From: Rubripirellula obstinata
Lineage (GTDB): Bacteria; Planctomycetota; Planctomycetia; Pirellulales; Pirellulaceae
Reading direction: 5' to 3'
Length of the DNA stretch: 37,008 nucleotides
NCBI RefSeq assembly: GCF_001642955.1
Contig: NZ_LWSK01000057.1
Location: forward strand, 1-37,008
Position numbers and translations under genes: made by a program. The notes under the pieces were generated by a model. The model made no database searches, had not been told where the DNA came from, and was given only the letters and a program-made list of their open reading frames with translations. Positions 6,418 to 34,562 of the stretch are shown here, in pieces (the first letter of the stretch is position 1; the number at the start of each line of letters is the position of its first letter).

Positions 6418-7571
6418 GGTTTTGTTACCGATGATGTCATGCAGCCGCCATACCTCGACCGTCGCTGCCCTGGATCGTCGCCCTTGGTTCCCGTGTTGCG
6501 AAAATGGTGAGCTTCGTCGATCAGAATGACATCCGCACGATCCGCAACCGAAGTCAGATCCTCCTGCATCGAGTCGCGGAGCAGATCAGTGTGATTGAAG
6601 ATTTCGAGATTGTTGAATCGCCCGAACAACTCCGGCAAGTATTTCTTCAGGGTAGAGGTCCACACGGCATCGCGAGCAGCCTTGGGAACAAACAAAGCAA
6701 CCTTCTTGCGATCATGTTTGATCAGCCTTTCGATCAACATCAAGCCCACAAACGTTTTGCCAAGCCCGACGCCATCGCAAAGGAACGCTCCGTTGTGTCG
6801 CGACGCACGCTTGAGCAAGCCTTGATAGCCCTCACGCTGATACTGAGCAAGGATTTTGAAGATCTTTGATTCTTGCCGCTCCCATTCGCCGGCGGTGAGT
6901 TCGTGTCCGCGAAAAAATTCTTGCAGTGATCTCGCGTAGATTTCAAAAGGCGTGAAATCACGTGTGTGACGCTCGATCGTTTTTAAGATGTCTTCGGAGA
7001 CGTCTTCGGCGTCTTCCCAATGCTGGTCGTACCATTCCTGCAATACGTTGACCGGCGACCCAGTGACCTGGACGTTTAGCTCGATGTTCTCCGTCAAACC
7101 TGGATAGGTGAAGTTGGACGACCCCACCAATCCGAATGATCCAATGACTTCTTGCCTGGCGTGTGTTAGATAGCACTTCGCATGAAATTTGTCTTTGCGA
7201 TAGACACGGCACTCGATCTTGCCCGACCGGATCGCTTCGACGATAGCGGGCGTGCCGGCTAGAAAGTCGTTTTGCTCCTTCTCTTGTTCAAGGCTGTTGT
7301 CCAGACGTTGCTGGACCTGAGCCAACGCCTGCTGAAACGCTTTCTTTGTTCGCCTCGAGACCTCATCACCCATCAGAATGCGGATCTTGTCGACTTTCTG
7401 CCACTGATCATCCAGAGCAAGCAAAGATCCGATCTCGAAGTAGCCGGTTGCGATGTCAATCGACTTTGATAGGTCGCACCAGTCTCGCAAATAACGAAGT
7501 GCCTTCCAGTCTTCTTCGCTGTTGTCGACGATAAATAGTTCGCTTCCCGTTTGCGAAGTTCGTTTTGGCAT
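6405..7571 (-). CDS. PLD-like nuclease fused to SNF2 helicase, N-terminal part (frameshifted fragment)
   Basis: The N-terminal ~170 residues form a phospholipase-D-like nuclease domain with the HxK motif at H130/K132 and the partner GSSNFT at 150-155. The SNF2 ATPase domain follows, with Walker A GVGLGKT near 267-273 and motif II DEAH at 352-355. The frame then drifts into nonsense after DDPGQRRSRY, and the remainder of the helicase is in the neighbouring frame (4432-6417). PLD-SNF2 proteins paired with an adenine methyltransferase are typical of restriction-like anti-phage loci, for example parts of DISARM-like or type ISP systems, but DrmA and DrmB partners are absent here. The start is the ATG at 7571, divergent from the XRE regulator at 7694. 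Confidence 0.8.
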   Translation of the reverse strand: MPKRTSQTGSELFIVDNSEEDWKALRYLRDWCDLSKSIDIATGYFEIGSLLALDDQWQKVDKIRILMGDEVSRRTKKAFQQALAQVQQRLDNSLEQEKEQNDFLAGTPAIVEAIRSGKIECRVYRKDKFHAKCYLTHARQEVIGSFGLVGSSNFTYPGLTENIELNVQVTGSPVNVLQEWYDQHWEDAEDVSEDILKTIERHTRDFTPFEIYARSLQEFFRGHELTAGEWERQESKIFKILAQYQREGYQGLLKRASRHNGAFLCDGVGLGKTFVGLMLIERLIKHDRKKVALFVPKAARDAVWTSTLKKYLPELFGRFNNLEIFNHTDLLRDSMQEDLTSVADRADVILIDEAHHFRNTGTKGDDPGQRRSRYGGCMTSSVTKPCSC

Positions 7572-11624: not shown

Positions 11625-12638
11625 ATGCGAAAACTGGCAACGATACGTACCGTCCATGAGACACGACCCATTGACGGGGCGGACTTGATTGAGTTGGCCG
11701 TTGTCGATGGCTGGAAGTGCGTGACGAAGAAGGGGGAATTCGCGGCCGGGGATGCGGTGATCTATTGCGAGATTGATTCGTTCTTGCCGGTTCGGGAGGA
11801 GTTTGAGTTTCTGCGTAAGTCGTCGCTGAAGGTGATGGATGACCGAGAAGGGTTTCGGTTGCGGACGGTGAAGCTGCGGGGGCAGATTTCGCAGGGCTTG
11901 CTGTTGGATCCGAAGATTCTTGGGCGCGAGTTCTCGGTGGGCGAGGATGTGACCGAAGAACTGGGCATCGTGAAGTACGAGCCGCCGATCCCGGCTTGCT
12001 TGGGTGGCGATGTCGTGGGCGGGTTCCCGGCGTTCATTGCGAAGACGGATGAGGAGCGGATTCAAAACCTGGCCGGCGATTTTGATTCGTTTCGTGGGCT
12101 ACTGTTCTACGTGTCGGAGAAGGTTGACGGGACTTCGTTCACGGCGTTTCTTCTCTTTAACGATGAAATCGGGGACCAGTTTGGTGTGTGTGGTCGGAAT
12201 TGGCAGTTGGCCGAGGACGAGTCGAACAGTCACTGGCGAGTCGTTCGGGAACTGAACCTACGCGAACGGATGGGAACATTGGGCCGGTCGCTGGCGATTC
12301 AGGGTGAATTGGTCGGGCCGGGGATTCAGAAGAACCGCTATGCATTGAAAGCTCCGACCGTGTTGGTCTTCAACGTCTTCGATATCGCCGCGTCTGCTTA
12401 CGTTGACAAGGCGGAGATGGAAGCGATTTGCCGTGAGCTTGATTTGTCGATCGTTCCGCCGCTGGGTGAGATGAACGTGCCTGACGACATGGATGCGATC
12501 TTGGCATTGGCCGAGGGCAAAAGCGTTTTGAATCCGAAGACGCAGCGTGAGGGACTGGTCTGGGTTCGCGGCTCGGGGGATGATCGCGTTTCCTTCAAGA
12601 CGATTTCCAACAAGTTCCTCGCCAAGCATGGCGACTGA
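11625..12638 (+). CDS. RNA ligase of the DraRnl (Rnl5) family
   Basis: A 337-residue protein close in length and layout to Deinococcus radiodurans RNA ligase (Rnl5). It has an N-terminal OB-fold region (about residues 1-120) and a C-terminal nucleotidyltransferase domain. The adenylation motif I is EKVDGTSF with K166 as the predicted AMP-accepting lysine. Motif III-like GELVGPG lies at 228-234, motif IV at REGLVWV (E309) and motif V at SFKTISNKF (K325). All key residues are present, so the enzyme should be active. The family seals 3'-OH/5'-phosphate nicks in RNA-containing duplexes. A metallophosphoesterase gene follows on the same strand after a REPIN, and Ro60, Y RNAs and tRNAs lie a few kb away, which suggests an RNA-repair setting. 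Confidence 0.9.
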   Translation: MRKLATIRTVHETRPIDGADLIELAVVDGWKCVTKKGEFAAGDAVIYCEIDSFLPVREEFEFLRKSSLKVMDDREGFRLRTVKLRGQISQGLLLDPKILGREFSVGEDVTEELGIVKYEPPIPACLGGDVVGGFPAFIAKTDEERIQNLAGDFDSFRGLLFYVSEKVDGTSFTAFLLFNDEIGDQFGVCGRNWQLAEDESNSHWRVVRELNLRERMGTLGRSLAIQGELVGPGIQKNRYALKAPTVLVFNVFDIAASAYVDKAEMEAICRELDLSIVPPLGEMNVPDDMDAILALAEGKSVLNPKTQREGLVWVRGSGDDRVSFKTISNKFLAKHGD

Positions 12639-14890: not shown

Positions 14891-15388
14891 CTACAGCTTT
14901 TCCGCGATCGACATCGACATAAAAAGTCGTGATGGAAGGTTGGGAAGGGTTTTGAAGCCGTACTTCTCATAGAAGCTTTGAGCAGCGAGATCTTTGGCGT
15001 CAACGACGATCAGAGTCGCCGCAATCTGCGTCGATGCTGCGACGCAGCGTGCCAAGGCATCCGCCAACAGTAGACTTCCAAGCCCCGGAAAGTCATCATC
15101 CCTTGCCAGTCGACCGATCAAGATGCCGGGGACTTGAGGATAACGAGGTAATCGTTTCTTCAATTCGTCAGGCAAGCCGGTCAACTCGACGGAGGTTGAG
15201 CAGAGCGTATAGAAACCCGCAATCCGTTCAGGTTCCGCTTGAGGGCACATGACGAAAACAGCAGCCACCTTTCGCTTCACATCCTGGTTGGCTGATCTGG
15301 CTAGGTAAGCGTTCAGGGCCGAAACGCCGCAATCGAATCGCTTTCGGTCATGCGTTTTGGATAATGCCTCGCAAAGGAAGCCATTCAT
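14891..15388 (-). CDS. TacT-like GNAT toxin
   Basis: A 165-residue GNAT protein of the DUF1778-associated toxin family. It has the family opening LSKTHDRKRFDCGVSALNAYL, acetyl-CoA-binding PGILIGRLARDDDFPGLGSLLL, and the C-terminal AAQSFYEKYGF motif. Known members (TacT, AtaT) acetylate the amino group of aminoacyl-tRNAs and block translation. The ATG overlaps the antitoxin stop codon (ATGA), a classical coupled toxin-antitoxin arrangement. The sequence looks complete. Its tRNA target cannot be predicted, but a tRNA array lies 3 kb away. Confidence 0.9.
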   Translation of the reverse strand: MNGFLCEALSKTHDRKRFDCGVSALNAYLARSANQDVKRKVAAVFVMCPQAEPERIAGFYTLCSTSVELTGLPDELKKRLPRYPQVPGILIGRLARDDDFPGLGSLLLADALARCVAASTQIAATLIVVDAKDLAAQSFYEKYGFKTLPNLPSRLFMSMSIAEKL

Positions 15389-15669
15389 CGGCTGGTGACT
15401 TCTTTGCGGTGCCGATCGGCCGCGTTTCGCAAACGCTTGTTCGGTCGGCCCGTCGCCAGCAACACGTCGACCAACGCGCGGCTCTGGGTGCGGTTGAGTT
15501 TGAGTTGCTCGTGTTCTTCGATCACTGCCTTGGCAGCTTGCTCGGCATTAGCGATCACGAACTCTGAGACGCTGCATCCCTGGTAGGCCGCGGCGCGTTC
15601 GATCAATTGCTTCTTTTCAGTTGACACACGCGTTTCAATCCGAGCCATCTTTGTTTCGCCGACCGGCAT
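15385..15669 (-). CDS. DUF1778 antitoxin (TacA-like, ribbon-helix-helix)
   Basis: An ~87-94-residue protein with the DUF1778 signature RIETRVSTEKKQLIERAAAYQGCSVSEFVIANAEQ (summarised). The N-terminal RHH strand-helix-helix binds DNA and the C-terminal tail (LNRTQSRALVDVLLATGRPN) wraps the toxin. Start candidates are the ATG at 15669 (MPVGETK) and at 15648 (MARIE); both encode the full RHH. A near-perfect inverted repeat 32 bp upstream of the first is the likely autoregulatory operator. Confidence 0.88.
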   Translation of the reverse strand: MPVGETKMARIETRVSTEKKQLIERAAAYQGCSVSEFVIANAEQAAKAVIEEHEQLKLNRTQSRALVDVLLATGRPNKRLRNAADRHRKEVTSR

Positions 15670-15700
15670 GACTTTTCTCCGAAGTAAGGAATGCACTCAT

Positions 15701-15902: not shown

Positions 15903-17630
<1,728 letters not shown>

Positions 17631-17710: not shown

Positions 17711-17842
17711 TAAAACGCACTCGACGAATGGATGGACAGAGATCCCGCAGGCTTGTTGCCAAGCGAGCGGGGCGGGACTTGAACCCGCTAGATCTTTCGA
17801 TCGTTTGCCATGTACTCCGTGCCGGCAGTCGAGTGTGTGCGG
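17711..17842 (-). ncRNA. Y RNA-like RNA 1 (ro60-proximal; T-arm present, D-arm lacking)
   Basis: The 5' strand CACTCGAC (plus 17828-17835) pairs perfectly with 3' strand GTCGAGTG (plus 17718-17725), followed by CGTTTT. Inside are the conserved TGCC and TTC internal-loop bases and a second stem with one bulged base (GGCACGGAG with CTCTGTCC). The module has a T-arm (GCGGG TTCAAGT CCCGC) and a closed stem CCCGC/GCGGG capped by a loop with its own CTTG/CAAG hairpin. No D-arm like those of copies 2 and 3 is seen. The architecture matches bacterial Y RNAs (YrlA type): a terminal Ro-binding stem plus a tRNA-mimicking module. Confidence 0.78.
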
Positions 17843-17863
17843 GTGGCAGTGATGCACCTGATG

Positions 17864-18029
17864 AAAAGAAAAACGCGATCGACGAAGTGGTGACCAGAGG
17901 TTATTACGGCGCTCTACCACTGAGCTACGCCCCTGCGAGTTTGACAAGCAGCCCGCGGCGGTGGGACTCGAACCCACGACATCCGGCTCCTGAAGCATGT
18001 ACTCCGAATCGGCAGTCGATCGTGTGCGC
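17864..18029 (-). ncRNA. Y RNA-like RNA 2 (full tRNA-like module)
   Basis: The terminal stem is CGATCGAC (plus 18015-18022) with GTCGATCG (plus 17876-17883), followed by CGTTTTTC. The second stem GATTCGGAG/CTCTGGTC has one bulge. The tRNA-like module contains a T-arm (GTGGG TTCGAGT CCCAC), a loop-closed acceptor-like stem (CGCC/GGCG) and a D-arm (GCTC AGTGGTA GAGC). T-arm precedes D-arm, so the tRNA mimic is in YrlA order with its acceptor end capped. It begins 4 nt past the stop codon of the 18033-18404 gene and was probably processed from a shared transcript. Confidence 0.82.
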
Positions 18030-18032
18030 TTT

Positions 18033-18404
18033 CTATTTCGTTTTCTTCTTGGTGGTCTTTCCCATTTGTTTCCAAAGGGAACGGCCGTTGTCTCGGTCGA
18101 GCCGGACGAGTTGTTGCTGTCGTGTGTCGAAAGCGATCAGGTTTCCCTTGGGTCGCTTCGCGTAAACGAACGGCAAGCAAACGGCGACGACTTTGTGCGG
18201 TTCACCGGCTGCGTTTGGCAGGTAGCGAAGTCGTACGAGTTCGTCGATGGGTTGCGAGATTCCTGAGCAGTCCCATAAGTAGGACGGAAGCTCGATGATC
18301 TCGCTGAGGATGGTGACGTAGTCACCTTTGGCGATGTCTTCGCCAGCGATCCTGGCCGCGACGGTCGTCACGGTTTTGGATCTGGATTCGGTTGTGGTTT
18401 TCAT
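18033..18404 (-). CDS. Hypothetical protein encoded between Y RNAs, upstream of ro60
   Basis: A 123-residue protein of unknown family. It has an N-terminal region rich in Thr/Ser/Lys, a beta-rich centre (KGDYVTILSEIIELPSYLWD and KVVAVCLPFVYAKRPKGNLIAFD) and a very basic C-terminal tail (KQMGKTTKKKTK) suited to RNA binding. The fold may be SH3/KOW-like, but this is a guess. It lies between Y RNA 3 and Y RNA 2 on the ro60 strand, so it is likely cotranscribed with them. The ATG at 18404 is chosen; an upstream extension would translate the Y RNA 3 side region. Its location suggests a role with Ro60 or Y RNA. Confidence 0.6.
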   Translation of the reverse strand: MKTTTESRSKTVTTVAARIAGEDIAKGDYVTILSEIIELPSYLWDCSGISQPIDELVRLRYLPNAAGEPHKVVAVCLPFVYAKRPKGNLIAFDTRQQQLVRLDRDNGRSLWKQMGKTTKKKTK

Positions 18405-18542
18405 GTTTCCGTAATCGTTGAAAGATCGAATTGTGCATGTGTGTTCTCTGCCTGACCGCGAGCTTGGACTACTCGCGGCCGGTCGGAATGGCGAAACAGG
18501 AGTGTAAAACACGCATCATTCGATCTCTCGAGACGATTGGGG

Positions 18543-18688
18543 AAAACGCGATTGACGAAGTGGTTCGATCAGACAAATTCGATGCTCTACCCACTGAGCT
18601 ACGAAGCGGACACAAGGTTCACTTCGGTGGGACTCGAACCCACGGCCGTCGAGGTGATGTAGTCCAATCTGGCAGTCAATCGTGTGCG
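18543..18688 (-). ncRNA. Y RNA-like RNA 3 (full tRNA-like module)
   Basis: The terminal stem is CGATTGAC (plus 18675-18682) with GTCAATCG (plus 18549-18556), followed by CGTTTT. The second stem is GATTGGAC/GTCTGATC. The tRNA-like module is the clearest of the set: T-arm GTGGG TTCGAGT CCCAC, a 7-bp acceptor-like stem CGAAGTG/CGCTTCG closed by an 11-nt loop, then TA and D-arm GCTC AGTGGGTA GAGC. The stem sequence differs from copy 2 by a compensated change (C-G to T-A), direct evidence for pairing. Confidence 0.85.
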
Positions 18689-18832
18689 GTTGGCGACGAA
18701 GTTTTGGTCAGACGTTTTTTACTGAGCTACTCGCGAACTTTCGTCCGCCGGCGGGGCTCGAACCCGCGACCTCGCCGCATTGCGACGCGCTCTCACCATG
18801 TAGTCTGAACCGGCAGTCGCCGTGGTTTGGTT
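18689..18832 (-). ncRNA. Y RNA-like RNA 4 (variant module)
   Basis: The terminal stem is GGCGAC (plus 18816-18821) with GTCGCC (plus 18692-18697). The second stem GGTTCAGAC pairs with GTCTGACC with a single bulged T. The module has a T-arm (GCGGG TTCGAGC CCCGC) and an extra hairpin (CGTCGC AAT GCGGCG). The D-arm is split: GCTCAGT lies on the 3' side and GGTGAGAGC on the 5' side. It abuts Y RNA 3 with no spacer and has no T-run, so it presumably depends on processing. Confidence 0.7.
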
Positions 18833-18835
18833 GAA

Positions 18836-18910
18836 GACGGATCGACGAAGGGACAACTCAGATGGTTCACATTTTCAAGATGTAATCCAAGCCTGCAGTC
18901 GATCAGTCAG
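18836..18910 (-). ncRNA. Y RNA-like RNA 5 (minimal stem, no tRNA-like module)
   Basis: The terminal stem is GATCGAC (plus 18898-18904) with GTCGATC (plus 18840-18846), with the family internal loop TGCA/CTTC. The second stem GGCTTGGAT pairs with ATCTGAGTT including wobbles. Where the other copies carry a tRNA-like module, only about 18 nt are present (TTACATCTTGAAAATGTG region). It starts immediately after the tRNA-Cys 3' end. It looks like a Ro-binding stem alone; it could be a decayed copy. Confidence 0.6.
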
Positions 18911-18981
18911 AAACGCTGGTGGGAGTCGAACCCACTTTGGCCGGGTTGCAACCGGCTGCCTGGCCATCTGGCTCCAGCGTT
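18911..18981 (-). tRNA. tRNA-Cys (GCA)
   Basis: Canonical cloverleaf: acceptor AACGCTG/CAGCGTT, D-stem GCC/GGC, anticodon loop TTGCAAC, T-arm GTGGG TTCGACT CCCAC and discriminator U73, as usual for cysteine. No CCA is encoded. It is the last tRNA of the array before the Y RNA block and is followed at once by Y RNA 5, implying a shared precursor. Confidence 0.9.
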
Positions 18982-18984
18982 GCG

Positions 18985-19019
18985 GTAGTCTTTAGGAATT
19001 AGTCTTTAGTCTCTAGGAA
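18985..19019. repeat. Family C repeat, left arm flanking the four-helix-bundle gene
   Basis: It contains TTAGTCTTTAGTCTCTAG. The inverse partner (AGACTAAGGACTAT) lies at 19393-19424 on the far side of the four-helix-bundle gene. Related hairpins without a gene are at 19795 and 22440. Confidence 0.65.
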
Positions 19020-19033
19020 AACAGGGGAATGAA

Positions 19034-19399
19034 ATGCGAGATCACAGAAAACTGCGAGCGTTTGAGTTGGCCGATGAACTGGTGCTCGACGTCTACCGTG
19101 CTACCAAGACATTTCCTCGTGAGGAAATGTTCGGGCTAACTTCGCAGGTTCGTCGAGCCGCCGTTTCGATTGCATCGAACATCGTCGAAGGTTGCGCACG
19201 CCAATCGCAGGCGGACTTCGTCCGATTTCTCGACATGGCATTCGCTTCCGCACGGGAAGTGGAATATCAACTCAGCATCGCTGCACGGCTCGAATACATG
19301 CCAGCCGATCTCGCCACGACACTCAACGACAAGGTTGTCGAAACGTCAAAGGTCACCTACGGGCTTCTCAAATCGCTGCGCTCAAAACCTACAGACTAA
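19034..19399 (+). CDS. Four-helix-bundle protein (23S rRNA intervening-sequence/S23 family)
   Basis: A 121-residue all-helical protein of the S23/IVP family, recognised by [19 protein letters not shown], the [20 protein letters not shown] block and [26 protein letters not shown] (both summarised). Such proteins are encoded in rRNA intervening sequences and resemble the Avd accessory protein of diversity-generating retroelements; their function is poorly known. It is the only gene between tRNA-Cys and tRNA-Arg and is antisense to the array. The flanking inverted repeat suggests it arrived as a cargo-carrying repeat element. Confidence 0.88.
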
Positions 19400-19424
19400 G
19401 GACTATTTGCTATCGCCTATCGAG
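19393..19424. repeat. Family C repeat, right arm
   Basis: Inverse of the left arm at 18985-19019. It overlaps the stop region of the four-helix-bundle gene and ends at the tRNA-Arg 3' end. Confidence 0.6.
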
Positions 19425-19496
19425 TAACCCGCCCAGGAATCGAACCTGGTCCGACAGTTTCGAGGACTGTCATGCTTTCCGGCACACCCGCGAGTC
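19425..19496 (-). tRNA. tRNA-Arg (UCG), divergent
   Basis: Acceptor GACTCGC/GCGGGTT pairs at all seven positions with wobbles. T-arm CCAGG TTCGATT CCTGG is normal. The anticodon stem ACAGT/ACTGT encloses CCTCGAA, giving anticodon UCG but with C instead of U at position 33. The D-arm is reduced (GTGC/GCAT, 6-nt loop). A Ser(CGA) reading of the loop cannot be excluded, but the short variable loop argues for Arg. Confidence 0.65.
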
Positions 19497-19528
19497 ATTT
19501 GGTTGGTTTCATACTTCATAGACACAAG

Positions 19529-19602
19529 AGCCGACGACTGGGTTCGCACCAGCATGGTTTGCTTTACAAGAGCAACGCCTTTCTACATCGAGCCACGTCG
19601 GC
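19529..19602 (-). tRNA. tRNA-Thr (UGU)
   Basis: Acceptor GCCGACG/CGTCGGC and anticodon arm TTGCT CTTGTAA AGCAA give UGU. The T-loop reads TGCGAAC, so position 55 is G rather than U. No CCA is encoded. Confidence 0.8.
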
Positions 19603-19619
19603 TGGCTTTGTCGCATCAG

Positions 19620-19691
19620 TAGCCCGACCAGGAATCGAACCCGGAACTTCTGGTTAGAAGCCAGAGATGATGTCCGTTTCACCATCGAGCC
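19620..19691 (-). tRNA. tRNA-Arg (UCU)
   Basis: Acceptor GGCTCGA/TCGGGCT, anticodon arm TCTGG CTTCTAA CCAGA giving UCU, and T-arm CCGGG TTCGATT CCTGG. The D-arm is irregular, with extra bases before the anticodon stem. Confidence 0.75.
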
Positions 19692-19705
19692 GTTTTGCAA
19701 ACAAG

Positions 19706-19791
19706 CGGAAGGCGAGGGAGTCGAACCCTCATCACCCGAAGGTGGCACGCGTTAGCAGTGCGGCCCGGCAAACCGTATCCGGCTGCCTTCC
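19706..19791 (-). tRNA. tRNA-Ser (GCU), class II
   Basis: Acceptor GGAAGGC/GCCTTCC, anticodon loop CTGCTAA (GCU), and long variable arm CCACC TTCG GGTG, as required for serine. T-arm GAGGG TTCGACT CCCTC; discriminator G. Confidence 0.88.
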
Positions 19792-19794
19792 GAA

Positions 19795-19872
19795 GTAGTC
19801 TTTAGCCGATAGTCTCTAGTCTTTAGCAATTAGGTGGCTATTGACTAATGACTACTGGCTATCAACTGTCGA
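19795..19872. repeat. Family C hairpin between tRNAs (no gene inside)
   Basis: TAGTCTTTAG and TAGTCTCTAGTCTTTAG on the left are answered by TGACTAATGACTA and GGCTATCAAC on the right, an imperfect ~75-nt palindrome. It is the gene-less counterpart of the repeat around the four-helix-bundle gene. Confidence 0.65.
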
Positions 19873-19873
19873 G

Positions 19874-19946
19874 TGATCGCGGATGGAATCGAACCATCGG
19901 TCTCCTGCTTGTCACGCAGGCGTCTTAGCCGCTGGACCACGCGATC
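19874..19946 (-). tRNA. tRNA-Val (GAC)
   Basis: Acceptor GATCGCG/CGCGATC, anticodon arm CCTGC GTGACAA GCAGG (GAC), T-arm GATGG TTCGATT CCATC, discriminator A. The plus strand would read GUC in the same hairpin, but the T-arm fixes the minus strand. Confidence 0.85.
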
Positions 19947-19954
19947 GTTTTTCA

Positions 19955-20030
19955 TGACCGAGGTGGGAGTCGAACCCACAAAATCGCCGCGCTCTCGACG
20001 CGACCGCTTTGCCGGTTTGCGTACTCGGCC
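19955..20030 (-). tRNA. tRNA-Leu-like (GAG), class I body
   Basis: Acceptor GGCCGAG/CTCGGTC and T-arm GTGGG TTCGACT CCCAC are sound. The five-pair anticodon stem TCGCG/CGCGG encloses TCGAGAG, giving GAG with C33. The variable loop is only ~7 nt, unlike normal class II leucine tRNAs. The D-arm CGC/GCG matches that of the tRNAs at 21518 and 21787. Confidence 0.65.
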
Positions 20031-20091
20031 AACTCTGCGACAATGAAGACGCATAACCGTTTCGTGGGTTCACAAGAACAAGAGCAGAATA

Positions 20092-21327
20092 TTGAATGAA
20101 CTTGTCGCCTTGTTCCGTCAGCTCGACGACGAGAAAATCGCTTGGGATGCGTACCGAACTCTGGATTACGCGCAAGCTGACATCATCAAACAGGTGCCAA
20201 TGGTCTTGGCGAACACTGCCTGCGACCATGAAGACGGTGCTTCAAAGTACGCTATCGCAGCCAACGAAGCATTGGCACACGCTATCATCAACCACCATTC
20301 CCGTTTGTTGAAGGAAGGCATTCAGCAACTACTCAAACGCCGTTCGTCTAGATTCCGAGCCGTCATTGCCGAGCACCTTGCTGAGAATCCTCAGGAGAGC
20401 TTTGCTTCTTGCTTTAGATCCGCAATCGAATCCGATGACGACGTGTTCATTGCCGCGTCGTTGCACGGACTTCGACAAGCCATCGCTAAAGAAAGTTTTC
20501 GAGGTTCCTTTCGCGATGAAATGTTCTCCATGCTGCTTGGGCTTTGCATCCCTCCAATGGAATCCAATCACGATGTCCCTTCCCTCGTTGCTTCTATGGA
20601 TGGAAAACGAGCGCGAGCCGAATTGGTTTCAGAGCAATTCTTGAAGCCTGACAATCCGGCACTCGCATCAATACTCCGAAACGCATGTGAACTGGATTCG
20701 TACGTTTCCGGCGACTCTCTAGAGCATCTGTTTTACCGAGTTGACGAAGGTCGCTCAGGGAATGTCCCGGATCCCGACTTGGTTCTTTCTTGGATTGTTC
20801 GGCTTGCGATGGGAAAACAACACTTAGAATTTGCACCGGTGCTCGAAAGAGCAAGCTGCCATCGCAACGTTGAAGTGAAGCGACTTGGCTTGCTCGGCTT
20901 AGTCAGATTGCATTTACCGCACGATCCAATTCGCTCATCTGTGGCAGCCTTAGATTCGACAGCGTTAAAACTTCTCTCCACTCCCGTCAAAGTTGTCGCT
21001 TTCGCAGCGAAATATATCGAAGCGGTCGAGGAACAGGACGAAGGGATACTTGTGTTCGCGCGGCAAACATCCGGGAAGCGATTCCGATTCACGATCAAGT
21101 CGCTTGGAGTGCTCAAGGCTACACCTCATGTCAACCTGTTGACGTGGCTGCTCGAAGAACTTGGCGAGAATCCAAAGGAGGAGCTGAAAAGCATGCGCAG
21201 ATCCGAATTAAAAGCACTTGGAAAATCAATTTCAACAAGGGAAAAACGTCTGAACTTCGATCGTCTTCGAGTCCTGATTTTCCAGTACATTTTGGCAGAC
21301 TCTTCCGCCTTTACGTCATTGAAGTAG
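20092..21327 (+). CDS. Hypothetical helical protein embedded in the tRNA array
   Basis: A 411-residue, mostly alpha-helical protein with no signal or transmembrane segment. Repeated helical pairs such as RSSRFRAVIAEHLAENPQ and DVFIAASLHGLRQAI suggest a HEAT/ARM-like solenoid, but no family is recognised. The proposed start is TTG at 20092, since no ATG opens this frame earlier. It is antisense to the tRNA array, and its TAG stop overlaps the 3' end of the Met tRNA. This is the only large protein inside the tRNA block and looks like an insertion between tRNA genes. Confidence 0.6.
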   Translation: MNELVALFRQLDDEKIAWDAYRTLDYAQADIIKQVPMVLANTACDHEDGASKYAIAANEALAHAIINHHSRLLKEGIQQLLKRRSSRFRAVIAEHLAENPQESFASCFRSAIESDDDVFIAASLHGLRQAIAKESFRGSFRDEMFSMLLGLCIPPMESNHDVPSLVASMDGKRARAELVSEQFLKPDNPALASILRNACELDSYVSGDSLEHLFYRVDEGRSGNVPDPDLVLSWIVRLAMGKQHLEFAPVLERASCHRNVEVKRLGLLGLVRLHLPHDPIRSSVAALDSTALKLLSTPVKVVAFAAKYIEAVEEQDEGILVFARQTSGKRFRFTIKSLGVLKATPHVNLLTWLLEELGENPKEELKSMRRSELKALGKSISTREKRLNFDRLRVLIFQYILADSSAFTSLK

Positions 21328-21393
21328 CGGATCCAGGGGTCGCACCCGGCGATCCGAGCTTATGAGGCTCAGCTGGGCACTGGCCCATCCGCA
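21325..21393 (-). tRNA. tRNA-Met/Ile2 (CAU)
   Basis: Anticodon arm TGAGC CTCATAA GCTCG (CAU). Acceptor GCGGAT/ATCCGC has a T-T mismatch at 1-72. T-arm CCGGG TGCGACC CCTGG has G55. The D-arm is short (GGGC CAGT GCCC). The initiator GGG/CCC anticodon-stem pairs are absent, so elongator Met or Ile2 is likelier than initiator. Confidence 0.7.
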
Positions 21394-21419
21394 TCGTTGT
21401 CGCGAGCTGAATCGCGAAG

Positions 21420-21504
21420 TAGCCAAGGCGAGAGTTGAACTCGCACGCCAATATTGGCACGACATTCTGGTGCCTGCGTGTCTCGCAGGTTCCACCACTT
21501 GGCT
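21420..21504 (-). tRNA. tRNA-Leu, class II (CAG suggested)
   Basis: Acceptor AGCCAAG/CTTGGCT, T-arm TGCGAG TTCAACT CTCGC, long variable arm containing GCCAATATTGGC, and leucine-like TGGTGGAA start of the D-region. The anticodon region ACCAGAAT points to CAG, but the anticodon stem has a bulge and position 33 is C. The anticodon is therefore tentative. Confidence 0.65.
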
Positions 21505-21517
21505 GTTTGCATCGAAG

Positions 21518-21591
21518 TACTGCGGGAGGGAGTCGAACCCTCAAACACGAACGTTTGAAATTCGCCGCTTTGCCGGTTTGCGTACCACAGC
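21518..21591 (-). tRNA. tRNA-Leu-like (CAA), class I body
   Basis: Acceptor GCTGTGG/CCGCAGT, anticodon arm CGAAT TTCAAAC GTTCG (CAA), T-arm GAGGG TTCGACT CCCTC. The variable loop is five bases (TGTTT), not a long arm. The D-arm is nearly identical to those of the tRNAs at 19955 and 21787. Confidence 0.78.
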
Positions 21592-21603
21592 ATTTTGAAT
21601 CAG

Positions 21604-21675
21604 TACTGAGGGCGGGAGTCGAACCCGCAAGCACTTGTTCCTAAGACAAGCGGCTCGCCGTTGGCCTACCTCAGC
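21604..21675 (-). tRNA. tRNA-Leu-like (UAG), class I body
   Basis: Acceptor GCTGAGG/CCTCAGT, D-arm GGC/GCC, anticodon arm CTTGT CTTAGGA ACAAG (UAG), five-base variable loop TGCTT, T-arm GCGGG TTCGACT CCCGC. All stems are good, so the short variable loop is a genuine feature. Confidence 0.8.
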
Positions 21676-21688
21676 GTTTGTAAAAAAG

Positions 21689-21759
21689 TGGAGCACCGGG
21701 GAATCGAACCCCGATTTTCTGCTTGCAAAACAGACGTCTTCCCGTTGGACGAGCGCCCC
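21689..21759 (-). tRNA. tRNA-Ala (UGC)
   Basis: Acceptor GGGGCGC/GTGCTCC contains the G3-U70 wobble that defines alanine identity. Anticodon loop TTTGCAA (UGC), T-arm CGGGG TTCGATT CCCCG, discriminator A. Confidence 0.9.
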
Positions 21760-21786
21760 ATGATGTTCTTCGTTGAATTTGAAAAG

Positions 21787-21877
21787 TGCCCAGAGCAGGA
21801 GTCGAACCTGCAAACACTCGGGTTACTGTGTTCATTGCCTAAAGGGCTCGCCGCTCGGCCGGTTGGCGTATCTAGGC
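21787..21877 (-). tRNA. tRNA-like, class II, anticodon uncertain
   Basis: Acceptor GCCTAGA/TCTGGGC, D-arm CGC/GCG and T-arm GCAGG TTCGACT CCTGC all pair. A long variable arm (AACAC/GTGTT) is present. The anticodon arm is malformed: GCC CTTTA GGC has only a five-base loop. Leu(UAG) or another isotype cannot be decided. Confidence 0.55.
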
Positions 21878-21881
21878 GAAA

Positions 21882-21953
21882 TAGTCCCGGATGGAATCGA
21901 ACCATCGTTTCCTGCGTGTAAAACAGGTGTCGTAGCCGTTGGACCACAGGACT
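21882..21953 (-). tRNA. tRNA-Val (UAC)
   Basis: Acceptor AGTCCTG/CGGGACT, anticodon arm CCTGT TTTACAC GCAGG (UAC), T-arm GATGG TTCGATT CCATC, discriminator A. Its T-arm equals that of the Val(GAC) gene. Confidence 0.88.
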
Positions 21954-21976
21954 TTGTCAAAATGTCGATCCGAAGA

Positions 21977-22049
21977 GCACGTCCCCAAGGATTTGAACCC
22001 TGACTAACTGGTTTGGAATCAGCAGTGCTACCGTTACACCAGAGACGTG
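21977..22049 (-). tRNA. tRNA-Trp (CCA)
   Basis: Acceptor CACGTCT/GGACGTG, anticodon loop TTCCAAA (CCA) with one stem mismatch, T-arm CAGGG TTCAAAT CCTTG. The D-region (TGGTGTAACGGTAGCAC) is typical of glutamine tRNAs, so the body may derive from tRNA-Gln. Confidence 0.75.
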
Positions 22050-22068
22050 TGAAACTTTTCAAAACAAG

Positions 22069-22153
22069 TGGGAACGCAAGGAATCGCACCTCTCGCCGAC
22101 TACCACACAATTCAAGGCAGAAGATTTACAGTCTCCCGTGTGGAAACGCTCCC
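22069..22153 (-). tRNA. tRNA-Tyr (GUA), class II, shortened D-arm
   Basis: Acceptor GGGAGCG/CGTTCCC, anticodon arm GGAGA CTGTAAA TCTTC (GUA) and a long variable arm. The D-arm is abbreviated (TTCC ACAC GGGA) and the T-loop TGCGATT has G55. Confidence 0.7.
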
Positions 22154-22171
22154 AAGATTTCATCAAACAAG

Positions 22172-22266
22172 CGGAAGCCCCAGTGTGGGAGCTGCACTCG
22201 AACCCACAACGGTGATTAGCCGCAGCTGTTTTCAAGACAGTGTCCTCATCCGGCCGGGTGACTTCC
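22172..22266 (-). tRNA. tRNA-Ser (UGA), class II, with enlarged T-loop
   Basis: Acceptor GGAAGTC/GGCTTCC, anticodon loop CTTGAAA (UGA), long variable arm, discriminator G. The T-stem GTGGG/CCCAC encloses 13 bases instead of seven (TTCGAG, six extra, T), with a few extra bases before the acceptor. Probably decayed. Confidence 0.6.
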
Positions 22267-22271
22267 AGAAA

Positions 22272-22359
22272 TAGCGAGTTAGCTTTTAGCGTGTTAGCTG
22301 TTAGCAAACACTGATCCGAAAAAGCTAATTGCTAATTGGCTACCGGCTAATCAGCTAGC
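22272..22359. repeat. Family D hairpin between tRNAs (GTTAGCTTTTAGC type)
   Basis: GTTAGCTTTTAGC and TTAGCTGTTAGC on the left are answered by GCTAATTGCTAATTGGCTA on the right, an imperfect palindrome of ~88 nt. Similar elements lie at 23304 and 23811. Confidence 0.65.
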
Positions 22360-22363
22360 CAAG

Positions 22364-22438
22364 TGACGTGAGCGGGAATCGAACCCGCGGACTCCTGGAT
22401 GAAAACCAGACGATTCTGCCATCAGAATCTACCACGCC
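22364..22438 (-). tRNA. tRNA-Glu (UUC)
   Basis: Acceptor GGCGTGG/TCACGTC, anticodon arm TCTGG TTTTCAT CCAGG (UUC), T-arm GCGGG TTCGATT CCCGC, discriminator A. Confidence 0.85.
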
Positions 22439-22439
22439 G

Positions 22440-22517
22440 AAATAGTTGATAGTCTTTAGCCGATAGTCTGTAGGTCTTTCTTCTATCAACTAAAGACTGT
22501 TTGCTATGGACTTTCGA
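22440..22517. repeat. Family C hairpin between tRNAs (no gene inside)
   Basis: GTTGATAGTCTTTAG pairs with CTATCAACTAAAGAC, plus flanking related copies, an imperfect ~78-nt palindrome like that at 19795. Confidence 0.68.
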
Positions 22518-22518
22518 G

Positions 22519-22591
22519 CGATGGCAACGGGAGTCGAACCCGCAACGACTTGATAGACAATCAAGCTTCCTTCCCAGAGGAAATTGCGACC
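22519..22591 (-). tRNA. tRNA-Asp (GUC)
   Basis: Anticodon arm CTTGA TTGTCTA TCAAG (GUC), T-arm GCGGG TTCGACT CCCGT, D-stem TTCC/GGAA, discriminator G as for aspartate. Acceptor GGTCGCA/TGCCATC has one C-C mismatch. Confidence 0.78.
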
Positions 22592-22606
22592 GAATATGTT
22601 CGCGAG

Positions 22607-22682
22607 GGTGACCAACCGGAATTGAACCGGCGACAAACTCATTCACAGTGAGTCTCTGGAAGCCAACACCAGATCTGGCCAC
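22607..22682 (-). tRNA. tRNA-His (GUG)
   Basis: Acceptor GTGGCCA/TGGTCAC, anticodon arm ACTCA CTGTGAA TGAGT (GUG), T-arm GCCGG TTCAATT CCGGT, discriminator C as expected for histidine. Confidence 0.88.
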
Positions 22683-22684
22683 AG

Positions 22685-22759
22685 CACCGGAGACTGGAAT
22701 CGAACCAATGAACTCCTCGTTCAGAGCGAGGTGCAGCGACCAACAACTGCTACTCCGGC
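22685..22759 (-). tRNA. tRNA-Gln (CUG)
   Basis: Acceptor GCCGGAG/CTCCGGT, anticodon arm CCTCG CTCTGAA CGAGG (CUG), T-arm ATTGG TTCGATT CCAGT. Only two bases separate it from tRNA-His. Confidence 0.85.
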
Positions 22760-22778
22760 GTAACTTAAACTTGCAAAG

Positions 22779-22846
22779 CACTCCGTCCGGGAATTGAACC
22801 CGACCTGCGAGCTTCAAAGGCTCACGTCGCGACGACGCGCCGGAGA
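22779..22846 (-). tRNA. tRNA-Gln (UUG), short
   Basis: Anticodon arm TGAGC CTTTGAA GCTCG (UUG) and T-arm TCGGG TTCAATT CCCGG are good. Acceptor CTCCG/CGGAG has five pairs and the D-arm is compact. Total ~68 nt. Confidence 0.7.
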
Positions 22847-22865
22847 GAGTTTTCAACAATGAAAG

Positions 22866-22937
22866 AGTGTCCTGTGGGAGTCGAACCCACCTAGCCGGAT
22901 TGGAAGCCCGGAACCTTTGCCGCTCGGCCAAGGACAC
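22866..22937 (-). tRNA. tRNA-Gly (UCC)
   Basis: Acceptor GTGTCCT/AGGACAC, anticodon arm CCGGG CTTCCAA TCCGG (UCC), T-arm GTGGG TTCGACT CCCAC. All stems complete. Confidence 0.9.
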
Positions 22938-22944
22938 GAAATTT

Positions 22945-23018
22945 GCGGAAGTTTGAAGGGCGAGGTGTAGAACGAAGCGAGCTATTCCACACTTCTCGCT
23001 TCACCCTTCAAACTTCGC
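22945..23018. repeat. Family E hairpin between tRNAs
   Basis: AAGTTTGAAGGG (22949-22960) and CCCTTCAAACTT (23004-23015) are perfect inverse arms, extended by GCG/CGC and an AT-poor centre. The family differs from C and D. Confidence 0.75.
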
Positions 23019-23022
23019 GAAG

Positions 23023-23094
23023 CTCCGGCGGATGGACTCGAACCATCACTCGTCTCCTTAACAGGGAGCCGCCTTACCATTGGGCCACACCGGA
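23023..23094 (-). tRNA. tRNA-Asn (GUU)
   Basis: Acceptor TCCGGTG/CGCCGGA, anticodon arm GCTCC CTGTTAA GGAGA (GUU), T-arm GATGG TTCGAGT CCATC, discriminator G as usual for asparagine. Confidence 0.9.
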
Positions 23095-23103
23095 TTTTTG
23101 CAA

Positions 23104-23174
23104 AGCGCCCAGTGGGAGTCGAACCCACACTTCCGCCATGGCAAGGCAGCAGGCTACCGCTACATCATGGGCGC
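23104..23174 (-). tRNA. tRNA-Gly (GCC)
   Basis: Acceptor GCGCCCA/TGGGCGC, anticodon arm CTGCC TTGCCAT GGCGG (GCC), T-arm GTGGG TTCGACT CCCAC. Confidence 0.9.
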
Positions 23175-23227
23175 AAAAAATGCATCACTACCAAATTGTC
23201 AAAGATCAAAGATGCCAAAGCATCAAG

Positions 23228-23298
23228 AGCACCGAGCCGGAATCGAACCCGCATCACCTCGTTACGACGGAGGAGTCTTGCCGTTAGACCATCAGTGC
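23228..23298 (-). tRNA. tRNA-Thr (CGU)
   Basis: Acceptor GCACTGA/TCGGTGC, anticodon loop GTCGTAA (CGU) closed by four pairs, T-arm GCGGG TTCGATT CCGGC with one mismatch. Confidence 0.8.
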
Positions 23299-23303
23299 TG
23301 GAG

Positions 23304-23380
23304 TAGCTTTTAGCGGTTAGCTTTTAGCGATTAGCTTTTCCATGTTGGAGCTAATCGCTAACAGCTAATGGCTAATCGCT
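23304..23380. repeat. Family D hairpin between tRNAs
   Basis: TAGCGGTTAGCTTTTAGCG and ATTAGC are answered by GCTAATCGCTAACAGCTAAT, an imperfect ~77-nt palindrome of the GTTAGCTTTTAGC type. Confidence 0.7.
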
Positions 23381-23389
23381 TTCTTCAAG

Positions 23390-23462
23390 TGGGATCGGTG
23401 AGAATCGAACTCACATCGCTCGGATTAAGAGTCCGATGCATTACCTTGTCTGCCACAATCCC
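23390..23462 (-). tRNA. tRNA-Lys (CUU)
   Basis: Acceptor GGGATTG/CGATCCC, anticodon arm TCGGA CTCTTAA TCCGA (CUU), T-arm GTGAG TTCGATT CTCAC, discriminator A. Confidence 0.9.
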
Positions 23463-23487
23463 ATGTGTCGTCGTTGTTTCGTTTCAG

Positions 23488-23560
23488 TCGGCGTGGCGGG
23501 AATTGAACCCGCGACCGTCGCCTTATAAGGACGCCGCTCTCACCCCTGAGCTACACGCCG
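23488..23560 (-). tRNA. tRNA-Ile (UAU)
   Basis: Acceptor CGGCGTG/CACGCCG, D-arm GCTC/GAGC, anticodon loop CTTATAA (UAU), T-arm GCGGG TTCAATT CCCGC. UAU isoleucine tRNAs are rare in bacteria, which usually use lysidine-modified CAU. Confidence 0.85.
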
Positions 23561-23571
23561 ATGCGTAGCGA

Positions 23572-23659
23572 TGGGGCCGAACGGAGCCCGGCCCTCACCG
23601 AACGCCCTTAACAGACGTCACAGCAAAGTCCGTCATGCTGCCAGTTACACCACAGCCCC
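23572..23659 (-). tRNA. Degenerate tRNA-like gene (Gln-like 5' half)
   Basis: Acceptor GGGGCTG/CGGCCCC and the D-region TGGTGTAACTGGCAGC are tRNA-like. The anticodon region (around CTTTGC) has no good stem and the T-arm lacks the normal loop. It is probably a remnant; isotype is not assigned. Confidence 0.4.
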
Positions 23660-23735
23660 GATGTTCAGTCGCGGCTATGCGTTTCAATCGCAGTGCAGGC
23701 AGCATGTTCGTTTCCTTTCGAGTCGTTGTCGTAAG

Positions 23736-23807
23736 TGGTAGCCCCGAGGATCGAACTCAGCGCGACCCGCGTATCAGGCGGATTTGGGCGACCAGCCCTC
23801 GACTACC
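23736..23807 (-). tRNA. tRNA-Ile (GAU)
   Basis: Acceptor GGTAGTC/GGCTACC, anticodon arm TCCGC CTGATAC GCGGG (GAU), T-arm CTGAG TTCGATC CTCGG. The D-arm is compact (GGGC TGGTC GCCC). Confidence 0.78.
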
Positions 23808-23810
23808 AAA

Positions 23811-23888
23811 AGCAGCGGTTAGCTTTTAGCGATTAGCCTTTAGCTTTCCTGTTCTCGCTAATAGCTAATCGCTAACCGCTAATAGCTA
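23811..23888. repeat. Family D hairpin between tRNAs
   Basis: AGCGGTTAGCTTTTAGCGAT and TTAGC are answered by GCTAATAGCTAATCGCTAAC and CGCT, an imperfect ~78-nt palindrome. Confidence 0.7.
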
Positions 23889-23896
23889 TTTTTCAG

Positions 23897-23968
23897 TGGG
23901 CCGGGAGGCGCTCGAATCCTCGTCTGCGGTTCTTCAGACCGCCGCTAGACCGTCTCAGCTACCAGCCC
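23897..23968 (-). tRNA. tRNA-Phe (GAA), first gene of the array
   Basis: Acceptor GGGCTGG/CCGGCCC, anticodon arm GCGGT CTGAAGA ACCGC (GAA), D-arm GCTG-type. The T-arm has an A53-G61 mismatch (GAGG ATTCGAGCG CCTC). It is the 5'-most tRNA, so the array promoter should lie just above 23968. Confidence 0.82.
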
Positions 23969-33518: not shown

Positions 33519-33995
33519 TCAAATTTTGGATTTCTCAAATTGAACAATCACAATTCGTCCACCGAACGAAACGTTGGAAAGTTCATCCTTCATCAGATCA
33601 AGAACTGCATCGGTCGAACCGCCGCCGGTCCCTGCACCGATCAACGGCAATGCGATCGACTCGAAACCAGATTCTTCAGCCAATGCCAGTGCATGGCGGC
33701 AAGAATCGCGAATTGACGTTTCGCTTGAGCGCCACCACATGCTGATGCCGGCCACGTGGATGATCGCTTTAAACGGTAATTTGCCTGCGCCGGTTTGCAC
33801 CGCACCACCCAGCGGGATCGGTCCATGCTTAGCAAGCTCGCGAAACGGAGCATGCCCGCCACGACGTTTGATCGCTCCTGAAACGCCTTGCGGAAGCAAC
33901 AACCACCACGGAATGATGTTTCGGTTCCAAGCGTTGACGATTACATCAACGTCTTGATCCAAGAGATCGCCGTTGACGATTTCGAGTTTGCTCAT
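33519..33995 (-). CDS. Macrodomain protein
   Basis: A 158-residue single macrodomain. The ADP-ribose-binding elements are visible as VNGDLLDQDVDVIVNAWN at the N-terminus, HVAGISMWWRSSETSIRDSC, and PLIGAGTGGGSTDAVLDLM. Macrodomains bind or hydrolyse ADP-ribose derivatives; some yeast relatives act on ADP-ribose 1''-phosphate, downstream of the Tpt1/KptA reaction. Its ATG (33995) lies 7 nt past the KptA stop, so they are cotranscribed and probably act in series. Confidence 0.87.
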   Translation of the reverse strand: MSKLEIVNGDLLDQDVDVIVNAWNRNIIPWWLLLPQGVSGAIKRRGGHAPFRELAKHGPIPLGGAVQTGAGKLPFKAIIHVAGISMWWRSSETSIRDSCRHALALAEESGFESIALPLIGAGTGGGSTDAVLDLMKDELSNVSFGGRIVIVQFEKSKI

Positions 33996-34002
33996 CAAAT
34001 GC

Positions 34003-34557
34003 TCAAGTCGGGAAAGTCAGATAGTGTGTCGGCACGGCGTCGACTAACCAAACACCATTGGCGGACAAGTAGAAACGATGCTCGTCACGATGCATCGCTG
34101 CAGCGTCGACTTGCAGAATGATTGGTTTGCCTCGCCTTGATCCGACTTTGGTTGCGGTCGATTCGTCTGCGGAAAGATGCACGTGGTTTCGCGATCGTTT
34201 TTCCAAACCAATCGTGCGGATGTTTTCGATAAACGCGGCGACGGTTCCGTGAAAGAGCGTGTCGGGTGGCGTTGTCTCTTCGAGCTTCAAGTCGACGCCG
34301 GTGATGGAGTGTCCTTGGCTGGCGCGAATGCGGAGTCCGTCGTCGCTCAACGCAAACCGCTTCTTGTCATTCGTCGCGACCACTTCGTGAACCAACTCAA
34401 GCGTCAACTGCTTTCCCCGCTGGTTGGCAGATGAGATGAGTTCGTCAATGTCCAGCCAACCTTCCTCGTCAAGCTTCATGCCCACGACTTCGGGTTGATG
34501 CCGCAGAACCAAGCTCAAAAATTTGCTCGTCGATGTGAGTTTCCTATCGCTAAGCAT
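34003..34557 (-). CDS. kptA: RNA 2'-phosphotransferase (Tpt1/KptA family)
   Basis: A ~184-residue protein with the KptA/Tpt1 signature: SKFLSLVLRHQPEVVGMKLDEEGW at the N-terminus, LFHGTVAAFIENIRTIGLEKRSRNHVHLSAD (summarised) in the middle and NGVWLVDAVPTHYLTFP at the end. The family transfers an internal 2'-phosphate from RNA to NAD+, giving ADP-ribose 1'',2''-cyclic phosphate. Bacteria with KptA usually lack a known substrate. ATG 34557 is used; an upstream TTG is unlikely. It follows the nitroreductase by 5 nt and precedes the macrodomain gene. Confidence 0.92.
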   Translation of the reverse strand: MLSDRKLTSTSKFLSLVLRHQPEVVGMKLDEEGWLDIDELISSANQRGKQLTLELVHEVVATNDKKRFALSDDGLRIRASQGHSITGVDLKLEETTPPDTLFHGTVAAFIENIRTIGLEKRSRNHVHLSADESTATKVGSRRGKPIILQVDAAAMHRDEHRFYLSANGVWLVDAVPTHYLTFPT

Positions 34558-34562
34558 GGCAC

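Follow-up and report, generated by a model that had tools for sequence, protein, structure and literature searches.

Y RNA genes with tRNA-like inserts of two predicted topologies between a tRNA array and ro60 in Rubripirellula obstinata

In the current view, bacterial Y RNAs link Ro60 with partner enzymes via a tRNA-like module, and YrlA is the tRNA-mimicking Y RNA of Salmonella and other bacteria. A 37,008-nucleotide stretch of the planctomycete Rubripirellula obstinata (contig NZ_LWSK01000057.1; the whole stretch is called the window here) carries five candidate Y RNA genes, named c1 to c5, between a tRNA array and ro60, which raises the question of what a single Ro60 would do with several such RNAs. 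The reading that we favor, with a probability of roughly 70%, is that the five RNAs share one Ro60-type handle and carry different inserts, which would supply Ro60 with several partners or decoys. At the level of nucleotide sequence, the analysis established the handles, two topologies of tRNA-like insert and their covariation, the position behind the array, and the presence of both topologies side by side at the Ro60 loci of distant families. What is new is the topology of c2, in which a tRNA body with four arms is opened at the D-loop and not at the anticodon loop; this suggests that a single protein has several different tRNA look-alikes at its disposal.

18910..23968, minus strand: redundant array of 24 tRNAs called by ARAGORN; its last member is tRNA-Cys(gca), 18910-18981
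23487..23560, minus strand: tRNA-Ile(tat) of the array, the tRNA most like the c2 module by local alignment score
18836..18908, minus strand: c1, short Y RNA without a tRNA-like module, 1 nt past tRNA-Cys
18692..18821, minus strand: c2, Y RNA with a predicted D-loop-opened, four-armed permuted tRNA body (18720-18796)
18546..18685, minus strand: c3, Y RNA of YrlA order with an anticodon-opened tRNA body (18574-18656)
18033..18404, minus strand: conserved open reading frame (ORF) of 123 amino acids between c3 and c4
17873..18025, minus strand: c4, Y RNA of YrlA order with an anticodon-opened tRNA body (17901-17990)
17715..17838, minus strand: c5, Y RNA with a T-arm and a long capped acceptor, D-arm not found
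15903..17630, minus strand: ro60/rsr, 575 amino acids from a conserved ATG, identified by Pfam, profile, and Foldseek matches

Five Y RNA genes with a common handle

In the transcript, the order is c1, c2, c3, c4, and c5, between tRNA-Cys and ro60, and the ro60 start lies 84 nt downstream of c5. The first-pass annotation of this DNA, whose copies 1 to 5 correspond to c5 to c1 here, had described five minus-strand stem pairs; all of them are present (18908-17715), and the ends pair in 5/5 copies. The loop bases TGCC or TGCA and the second stem that it listed as common features were also found, and (C)TTCGTC and TACAT are likewise common to the copies. Its tandem row stands as five genes upstream of ro60, but the row is interrupted between c3 and c4 by the 123-codon ORF. 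The number five, which had been called unusual, is not: the loci of relatives hold up to seven Y RNAs, with seven in two relatives and six in five of the loci examined (two of these five are from the same genome). As for the identification of the copies as Y RNAs, it is supported by anatomy, covarying stems, and the neighboring ro60, whereas none of the five reached the Rfam cut-offs for YrlA or YrlB. Judged by their anatomy, c1 to c5 are bacterial Y RNAs in the broad sense, with predicted binding to Ro60.

The comparison with Rfam gave a partial match to the known families. No Y RNA in the window was found at gathering scores; c3 and c4 matched YrlA (RF02553) below its score of 69, with 43.1 and 40.3 bits, respectively, and c1 matched YrlB (RF02565) with 28.9 bits, below its score of 97. 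At E values up to 1, no YrlA or YrlB match was obtained for c2 and c5 and no YrlA match for c1. The arm order of YrlA (T-arm, capped acceptor, D-arm) was found in c3 and c4 and not in c1, c2, and c5.

The assignment of the gene directly downstream of the Y RNAs as ro60 was borne out by Pfam, profile, and structure comparisons. The frame matched vWA_Ro60 (E value, 2e-12) and TROVE (6e-6), and a profile of 13 relatives matched Rsr of Deinococcus radiodurans (2nvo; 9e-36), with animal Ro60 next. An AlphaFold2 model with a mean predicted local distance difference test (pLDDT) score of 75.7 had 2nvo as its top Foldseek match (E value, 1.3e-15; template modeling score, 0.71 by target length). The metal ion-dependent adhesion site motif DxSGS is present, its last S being A in 1 of the 13 aligned relatives. 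By sequence and fold, the window protein is Ro60/Rsr, with both TROVE and vWA domains.

Relatives of the Y RNAs were collected via Rfam YrlA, Ro60, and the 5' motif of the handle, and the loci were then examined. The strict 5' motif was present in 65 of 296 genomes of the order and the same pattern reversed in 16, so single matches to the bare motif are possibly due to chance. For covariation, copies were chosen by their 5' and 3' motifs with pairing ignored, which gave 106 distinct sequences among 112 copies; 18 further 5'-motif matches, including c5 of the window, had no 3' motif as written and were left out. Flanking stem positions were paired in 465 of 530 instances, compared with 279 on average and never more than 323 in 2,000 shuffles, and 55 different end-stem pairs occurred among the distinct copies. 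The compensated stem changes first noticed within the window hold across relatives.

A relaxed motif with a stem of at least 6 pairs found 253 copies in 1.99 Mb of sequence from 149 loci that partly overlap, while the same scanner found 0 copies in the reversed sequences of these loci. We classed 215 nonredundant copies by regular expressions, so that the class counts are approximate: 81 were anticodon-opened, 11 were D-opened, 62 had no T-arm, 45 had a T-arm with no D-arm found, 8 had the D-stem 3' strand ahead of the T-arm with the 5' strand not found, 6 were of unpermuted order, and 2 were other. The six copies of unpermuted order (for example, L061 9771-9898, L064 3023-3145, L099 7549-7670, and L194 7253-7371) consist of a CCAG/CTGG D-like hairpin, a capped arm, and a T-arm; because the hairpin is without the usual GG, we do not call this class a tRNA mimic.

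Two topologies of the tRNA-like insert

In c3 and c4, the insert consists of a T-arm, a capped acceptor, and a D-arm in this order, the YrlA arrangement in which the tRNA body is broken at the anticodon loop. The first-pass annotation had read this order correctly in both, in agreement with Rfam and with the model R3 described below; its copy 4, c2, has a different topology. The order in c2 is D-stem 3' strand, capped anticodon-like arm, five-base variable loop, T-arm, capped acceptor, UA, and D-stem 5' strand. Read this way, c2 contains an entire tRNA body whose break lies in the D-loop, immediately ahead of G18G19, and a short cap takes the place of the anticodon loop.

Two covariance models, built without Y RNA sequences from the same 15 core host tRNAs (Ile and Cys excluded), separated the two topologies. 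One was permuted at the D-loop (R2) and the other at the anticodon loop (R3), and both were run on the whole window with filters off. The top match of R2 was c2, at full length and 55.3 bits, with 38.3 bits for c4, 25.3 bits for c3, and at most 30.2 bits on stretches of the tRNA array. The top matches of R3 were c3 (56.9 bits) and c4 (47.7 bits), with 30.4 bits for c2, and c5 scored about 13 bits with both models alike.

Alignments of the D-opened modules showed extensive two-sided change. Among 19 R2 matches (18 distinct), 99.2% of 369 cells were paired, and 12 of the 21 pairs had changed on both sides. A larger set of 25 modules (24 distinct) was obtained by adding seven distant-family copies, with L050 removed by the score limit and L305, the eighth distant copy, not included; in this set, 98.8% of 489 cells were paired, and 14 of the 21 pairs had changed on both sides. 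Doubly changed cells numbered 95, versus 23.7 in shuffles, and the covariation score was 0.546, compared with 0.089 or less when the partner was slid. Bases typical of a tRNA body were kept as well: U8, A9, and GCUC were present in 25/25 modules, and A14, G15, C48, and the TTCRA T-loop were each present in 24/25.

The D-opened type recurs in other families of Planctomycetota. R1, a model of c2-type RNAs that includes the handle, matched 117 of 241 genomes of the family at an E value of 1e-3 or lower, many of these being other classes caught via the handle; at 95 bits or more, there were 20 matches in 16 genomes of the family. In a draw of 294 genomes from across Planctomycetota, 12 had matches at an E value of 1e-6 or lower, and 8 of the 12 belong to three distant families. 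At the D-opened copy, R2 outscored R3 in 8/8 distant stretches (62.3 versus 32.6 and 60.9 versus 34.4 bits for the best copies, 54.1 versus 44.2 for L312, and no R3 match in L311), and the YrlA scores of these copies, where reported, were at most 38.8. Each of the eight stretches also contained another copy scored at 45 bits or more by R3, and three YrlA-order copies, in two of the stretches, were above the Rfam YrlA cut-off. Relatives of ro60 (37 to 40% identical) were found in seven stretches, and the eighth (L306) stops at a contig end. Thus, both topologies coexist at the Ro60 loci of distant families. One tRNA match each was found in two of the eight stretches, a count that covers the 2 to 3 kb examined. 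The search for D-opened RNAs extended over Planctomycetota and the collected viral and phage loci. In the literature searched, the titles and abstract openings contained no D-opened Y RNA; the primary YrlA papers lay outside that scope.

The tRNA array and rival explanations

The Y RNA cluster forms the tail of the 24-tRNA array, a link that the first-pass annotation had not made. All 24 tRNAs, from 23968 to 18910, are on the minus strand. The genome has 61 Rfam tRNA matches, 20 of them in the array with 39.5 to 64.9 bits and 41 outside the window with 34.2 to 79.0 bits, most of the latter above 55. Congeners without a ro60 match had 33 to 43 tRNA matches (n = 5) and congeners in which the array was found had 60 to 95 (n = 5), while a sixth, with a contig end just upstream of tRNA-Cys, had 45. 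The array is a dense tRNA block redundant to the core set, that is, a tRNA array unit. Its order is the same in several relatives, and presence within the genus is patchy, with a ro60 match in 6 of 22 genomes. One relative (G001) has three array copies (in L050, L049, and L068): one is complete with ro60, one has three Y RNAs with no ro60 found in the stretch, and one has a ro60 fragment. Two genes lie within the window array on the opposite strand, one for a 23S rRNA intervening-sequence/bAvd-like protein (19034-19399, plus strand) and one ORF of 411 amino acids without a Pfam match (20092-21327, plus strand).

Of 80 named Ro60 loci, the 44 with at least 4 kb of upstream sequence were the base of the counts. 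At least one Y RNA was found by motif in 29 and at least three in 13, and at least five tRNAs were found in 22; at least five tRNAs were combined with at least one Y RNA in 19 loci and with at least three in 10. Ten loci had Y RNAs and fewer than five tRNAs, and 15 had no Y RNA by motif. The Y RNA counts are lower bounds because the motif misses divergent handles. The gap between tRNA-Cys and the first Y RNA was 0 to 3 nt in 15 loci (one counted twice and two in one genome), and in one viral locus the first Y RNA lay 1 nt after tRNA-Arg. The short gap would fit release of the Y RNA 5' end by tRNA 3' processing.

We compared the c2 insert with the 24 array tRNAs and 40 of the 41 tRNA matches elsewhere in the genome. 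It was closest to tRNA-Ile(tat) of the array, with a score of 30, a runner-up at 27, and 20 shuffles at 14 or lower. Additionally, c5 contains an exact 21-nt match to the host tRNA-Leu(taa), and R1 weakly matched (31.5 bits) a stretch of the tRNA-Ile(gat) of the genome. In a tandem pair, the segment that joins the second half of one tRNA to the first half of its neighbor is permuted in the way the modules are, and tandem tRNAs are therefore their likely source. An origin from tandem copies has also been suggested for permuted tRNA genes elsewhere (PMC3978253).

The alternative that survives best takes the Y RNAs for tRNA decoys and the whole cassette of redundant tRNAs, Ro60, and Y RNAs for a phage-acquired antidefense or tRNA-damage module, not an RNA-decay machine. 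Several of the 28 viral contigs with Ro60 relatives hold large tRNA arrays, and an Rfam scan of four viral array contigs found array-internal YrlA matches, all short of the cut-off, in two of them (L246, 9750-9887 and 7330-7460; L255, 10340-10475 and 4210-4320); some of these abut tRNAs, one of them on both sides. Among 50,697 phage records, 221 matched the window Ro60, 186 of which are named Mycobacterium phages. Phage Mx1 has Ro60 among tRNAs, and mycobacteriophage Turret has an R3 copy (45.2 bits) just upstream of its Ro gene. The link of a tRNA array, Ro60, and a YrlA-type RNA is thus not unique to the window locus. The patchy presence in the genus points in the same direction, and mycobacterial tRNA arrays are called a putative antidefense system in PMC12803027. 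However, the window Ro60 is 61 to 67% identical to only 2 of the 28 viral loci and 33 to 43% identical to the other 26, and no clear D-opened copy was seen in viral loci with R1 on all 28 (best, 38.6 bits) or R2 on 25 of the 28. The better viral R2 matches fell on tandem tRNAs or had an R3 score about equal. Moreover, the distant-family RNAs have at most one tRNA match in the 2 to 3 kb examined around them, longer flanks not being covered. On balance, we consider a phage-acquired antidefense or tRNA-damage module possible but unlikely, and we continue to favor a Ro60 with several Y RNA partners.

Several observations count against the interpretation of c2 as a D-opened tRNA body. Both D-opened alignments, of 19 and of 25 copies, were fitted to the structure model. 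The D-stem (GAGC/GCTC) is nearly invariant, without covariation of its own, and therefore takes its support from identity with tRNAs alone. In ViennaRNA folding of c2 as a lone sequence, which ignores tertiary contacts, Ro60, and modifications, another structure was preferred (-49.5 versus -47.5 kcal/mol) and the D-stem had a probability of 0.15. Tandem tRNAs also score with R2 and R3 (L255 6404-6479 reached 60.5 bits with R2), and the R2-R3 gap is only about 10 bits for c4 and for the D-opened copy of L312. The parent tRNA of c2 is weakly preferred (30 versus 27), and 5/5 copies are below the Rfam cut-offs. Matches of R2 or R3 inside tRNA arrays were rejected as stand-alone proof, since tandem tRNAs imitate permuted ones; c2 is not placed between tRNAs.

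One could hold that c2 is an ordinary YrlA-type RNA with a decayed tRNA-like part and that its D-opened order is an accident of alignment. Its handle is indeed common to the YrlA-order copies, and its minimum-energy fold as a single sequence is not four-armed. However, the D-permuted model fits c2 at full length with 25 bits more than the anticodon-permuted model, every arm is retained in 24 distinct copies along with many two-sided changes, and the D-opened type is kept beside YrlA-order copies in distant families, which makes decay very improbable. The idea that the cluster consists of dead, tRNA-derived repeats without RNA function, as the array tRNA scores relative to those elsewhere and the broken array or ro60 copies in some relatives might suggest, is hardly credible, because compensation across 55 different end-stem pairs and the two-sided changes in the modules require selection on the RNA.

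Neighboring genes, known systems, and a putative adapter set

Where it occurs in the genus, the 123-amino-acid ORF shows 66 to 99% identity, and the longer frame around it (18033-18512) matched no Pfam family. Its AlphaFold2 model (pLDDT, 45.7) was too poor for use. As a dedicated Y RNA partner it was rejected, its homologues being without a Ro60, tRNA, or Y RNA match in 6/6 further stretches of 4.6 to 13 kb. PNPase is encoded in the genome. Further genes of the window include an RNA ligase with a PHA02142 OB-fold (11625-12638, plus strand), a macro domain (33519-33998, minus strand), the RNA 2'-phosphotransferase KptA/Tpt1 (34003-34566, minus strand), and, just downstream of ro60 (14891-15696, minus strand), a TacA1-type antitoxin with a GNAT match below the Pfam cut-off. 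The ligase, KptA, the macro domain, and TacA, all near the cluster, hint at RNA damage, although their link to it is one of proximity. At 69-3630 and 4432-7571 (minus strand), PADLOC matched two frames to one model of a type IIG restriction enzyme-methyltransferase and, in the same regions, two frames to one HKD and Snf2 helicase model; this defense-type system looks split.

The locus resembles several known systems without coinciding with any of them. With YrlA it has in common the paired ends, UGC, the order of T-arm, capped acceptor, and D-arm in c3 and c4, and the ro60 neighbor; it differs in that there are five copies, none at the gathering score, that c1, c2, and c5 have other inserts, and that the opening of c2 is in the D-loop, with an anticodon-like arm retained. 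Similarly, c1 resembles YrlB in being a short hairpin that lacks any tRNA part, but its 28.9 bits compare with a cut-off of 97 and it is placed 1 nt behind a tRNA. PMC8394870 and PMC4726728 describe how a Y RNA of D. radiodurans tethers Rsr to PNPase and how the tRNA-like domain of YrlA is modified by tRNA enzymes, with further background on YrlA in PMC7790460. The Rsr/Y RNA/PNPase complex of D. radiodurans, RYPER, has a putative counterpart here in a Ro60 relative, Y RNAs, and a PNPase gene, whereas the window locus has several different tRNA-like inserts and not one. The tRNA array units of mycobacteria and phages are likewise redundant tRNA blocks, and phage arrays may hold Ro60 and YrlA matches; in contrast, the window array is in a bacterial genome, its order is kept in relatives, and a cluster of multiple Y RNAs follows it. 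The permuted tRNA genes of algae and archaea share the junctions in the D-loop and anticodon loop and a possible origin from tandem copies (PMC3978253). However, theirs are processed to normal tRNAs, and the capped acceptor and fused handle here would leave no evident route to such products.

We propose that the array, the Y RNAs, and ro60 are cotranscribed and that the 5' end of c1 is released when tRNA-Cys undergoes tRNA 3' processing. Ro60 would bind the handle common to c1 to c5 (end stem, TGCC, second stem, and TACAT), leaving the inserts to vary: none in c1, an anticodon-opened body in c3 and c4, a D-opened body in c2, and a T-arm with a capped acceptor in c5. These inserts may dock tRNA-directed enzymes, such as PNPase as in RYPER, modification enzymes, and perhaps nucleases or ligases, and tRNA bodies offered in two orientations would give one Ro60 several partners or decoys. 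Because the acceptor is capped and the normal anticodon loop is lost, the inserts should neither decode nor be charged. Most simply, these sequences would be read as a group of adapters bound to Ro60, with some members presenting the same tRNA body from different sides. Roles in RNA decay, in tRNA repair, or in a guard against tRNA-cleaving enzymes stand side by side as candidates. A bolder and doubtful extension is that Planctomycetes maintain a toolkit of Ro60-bound tRNA dummies, derived from a redundant array and opened at different loops so as to show the tRNA body in different orientations, that would recruit or distract different tRNA-directed enzymes during tRNA damage.

The 0- to 3-nt tRNA-Cys junction and the tandem arrays offer a concrete route by which permuted tRNA mimics may arise and be processed. 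Since distant families of a single phylum have kept a second, D-loop-opened topology alongside the first, the tRNA-like module of Y RNAs would be a set and not a single adapter, and the purpose of tRNA mimicry becomes testable via the partners of the two kinds.

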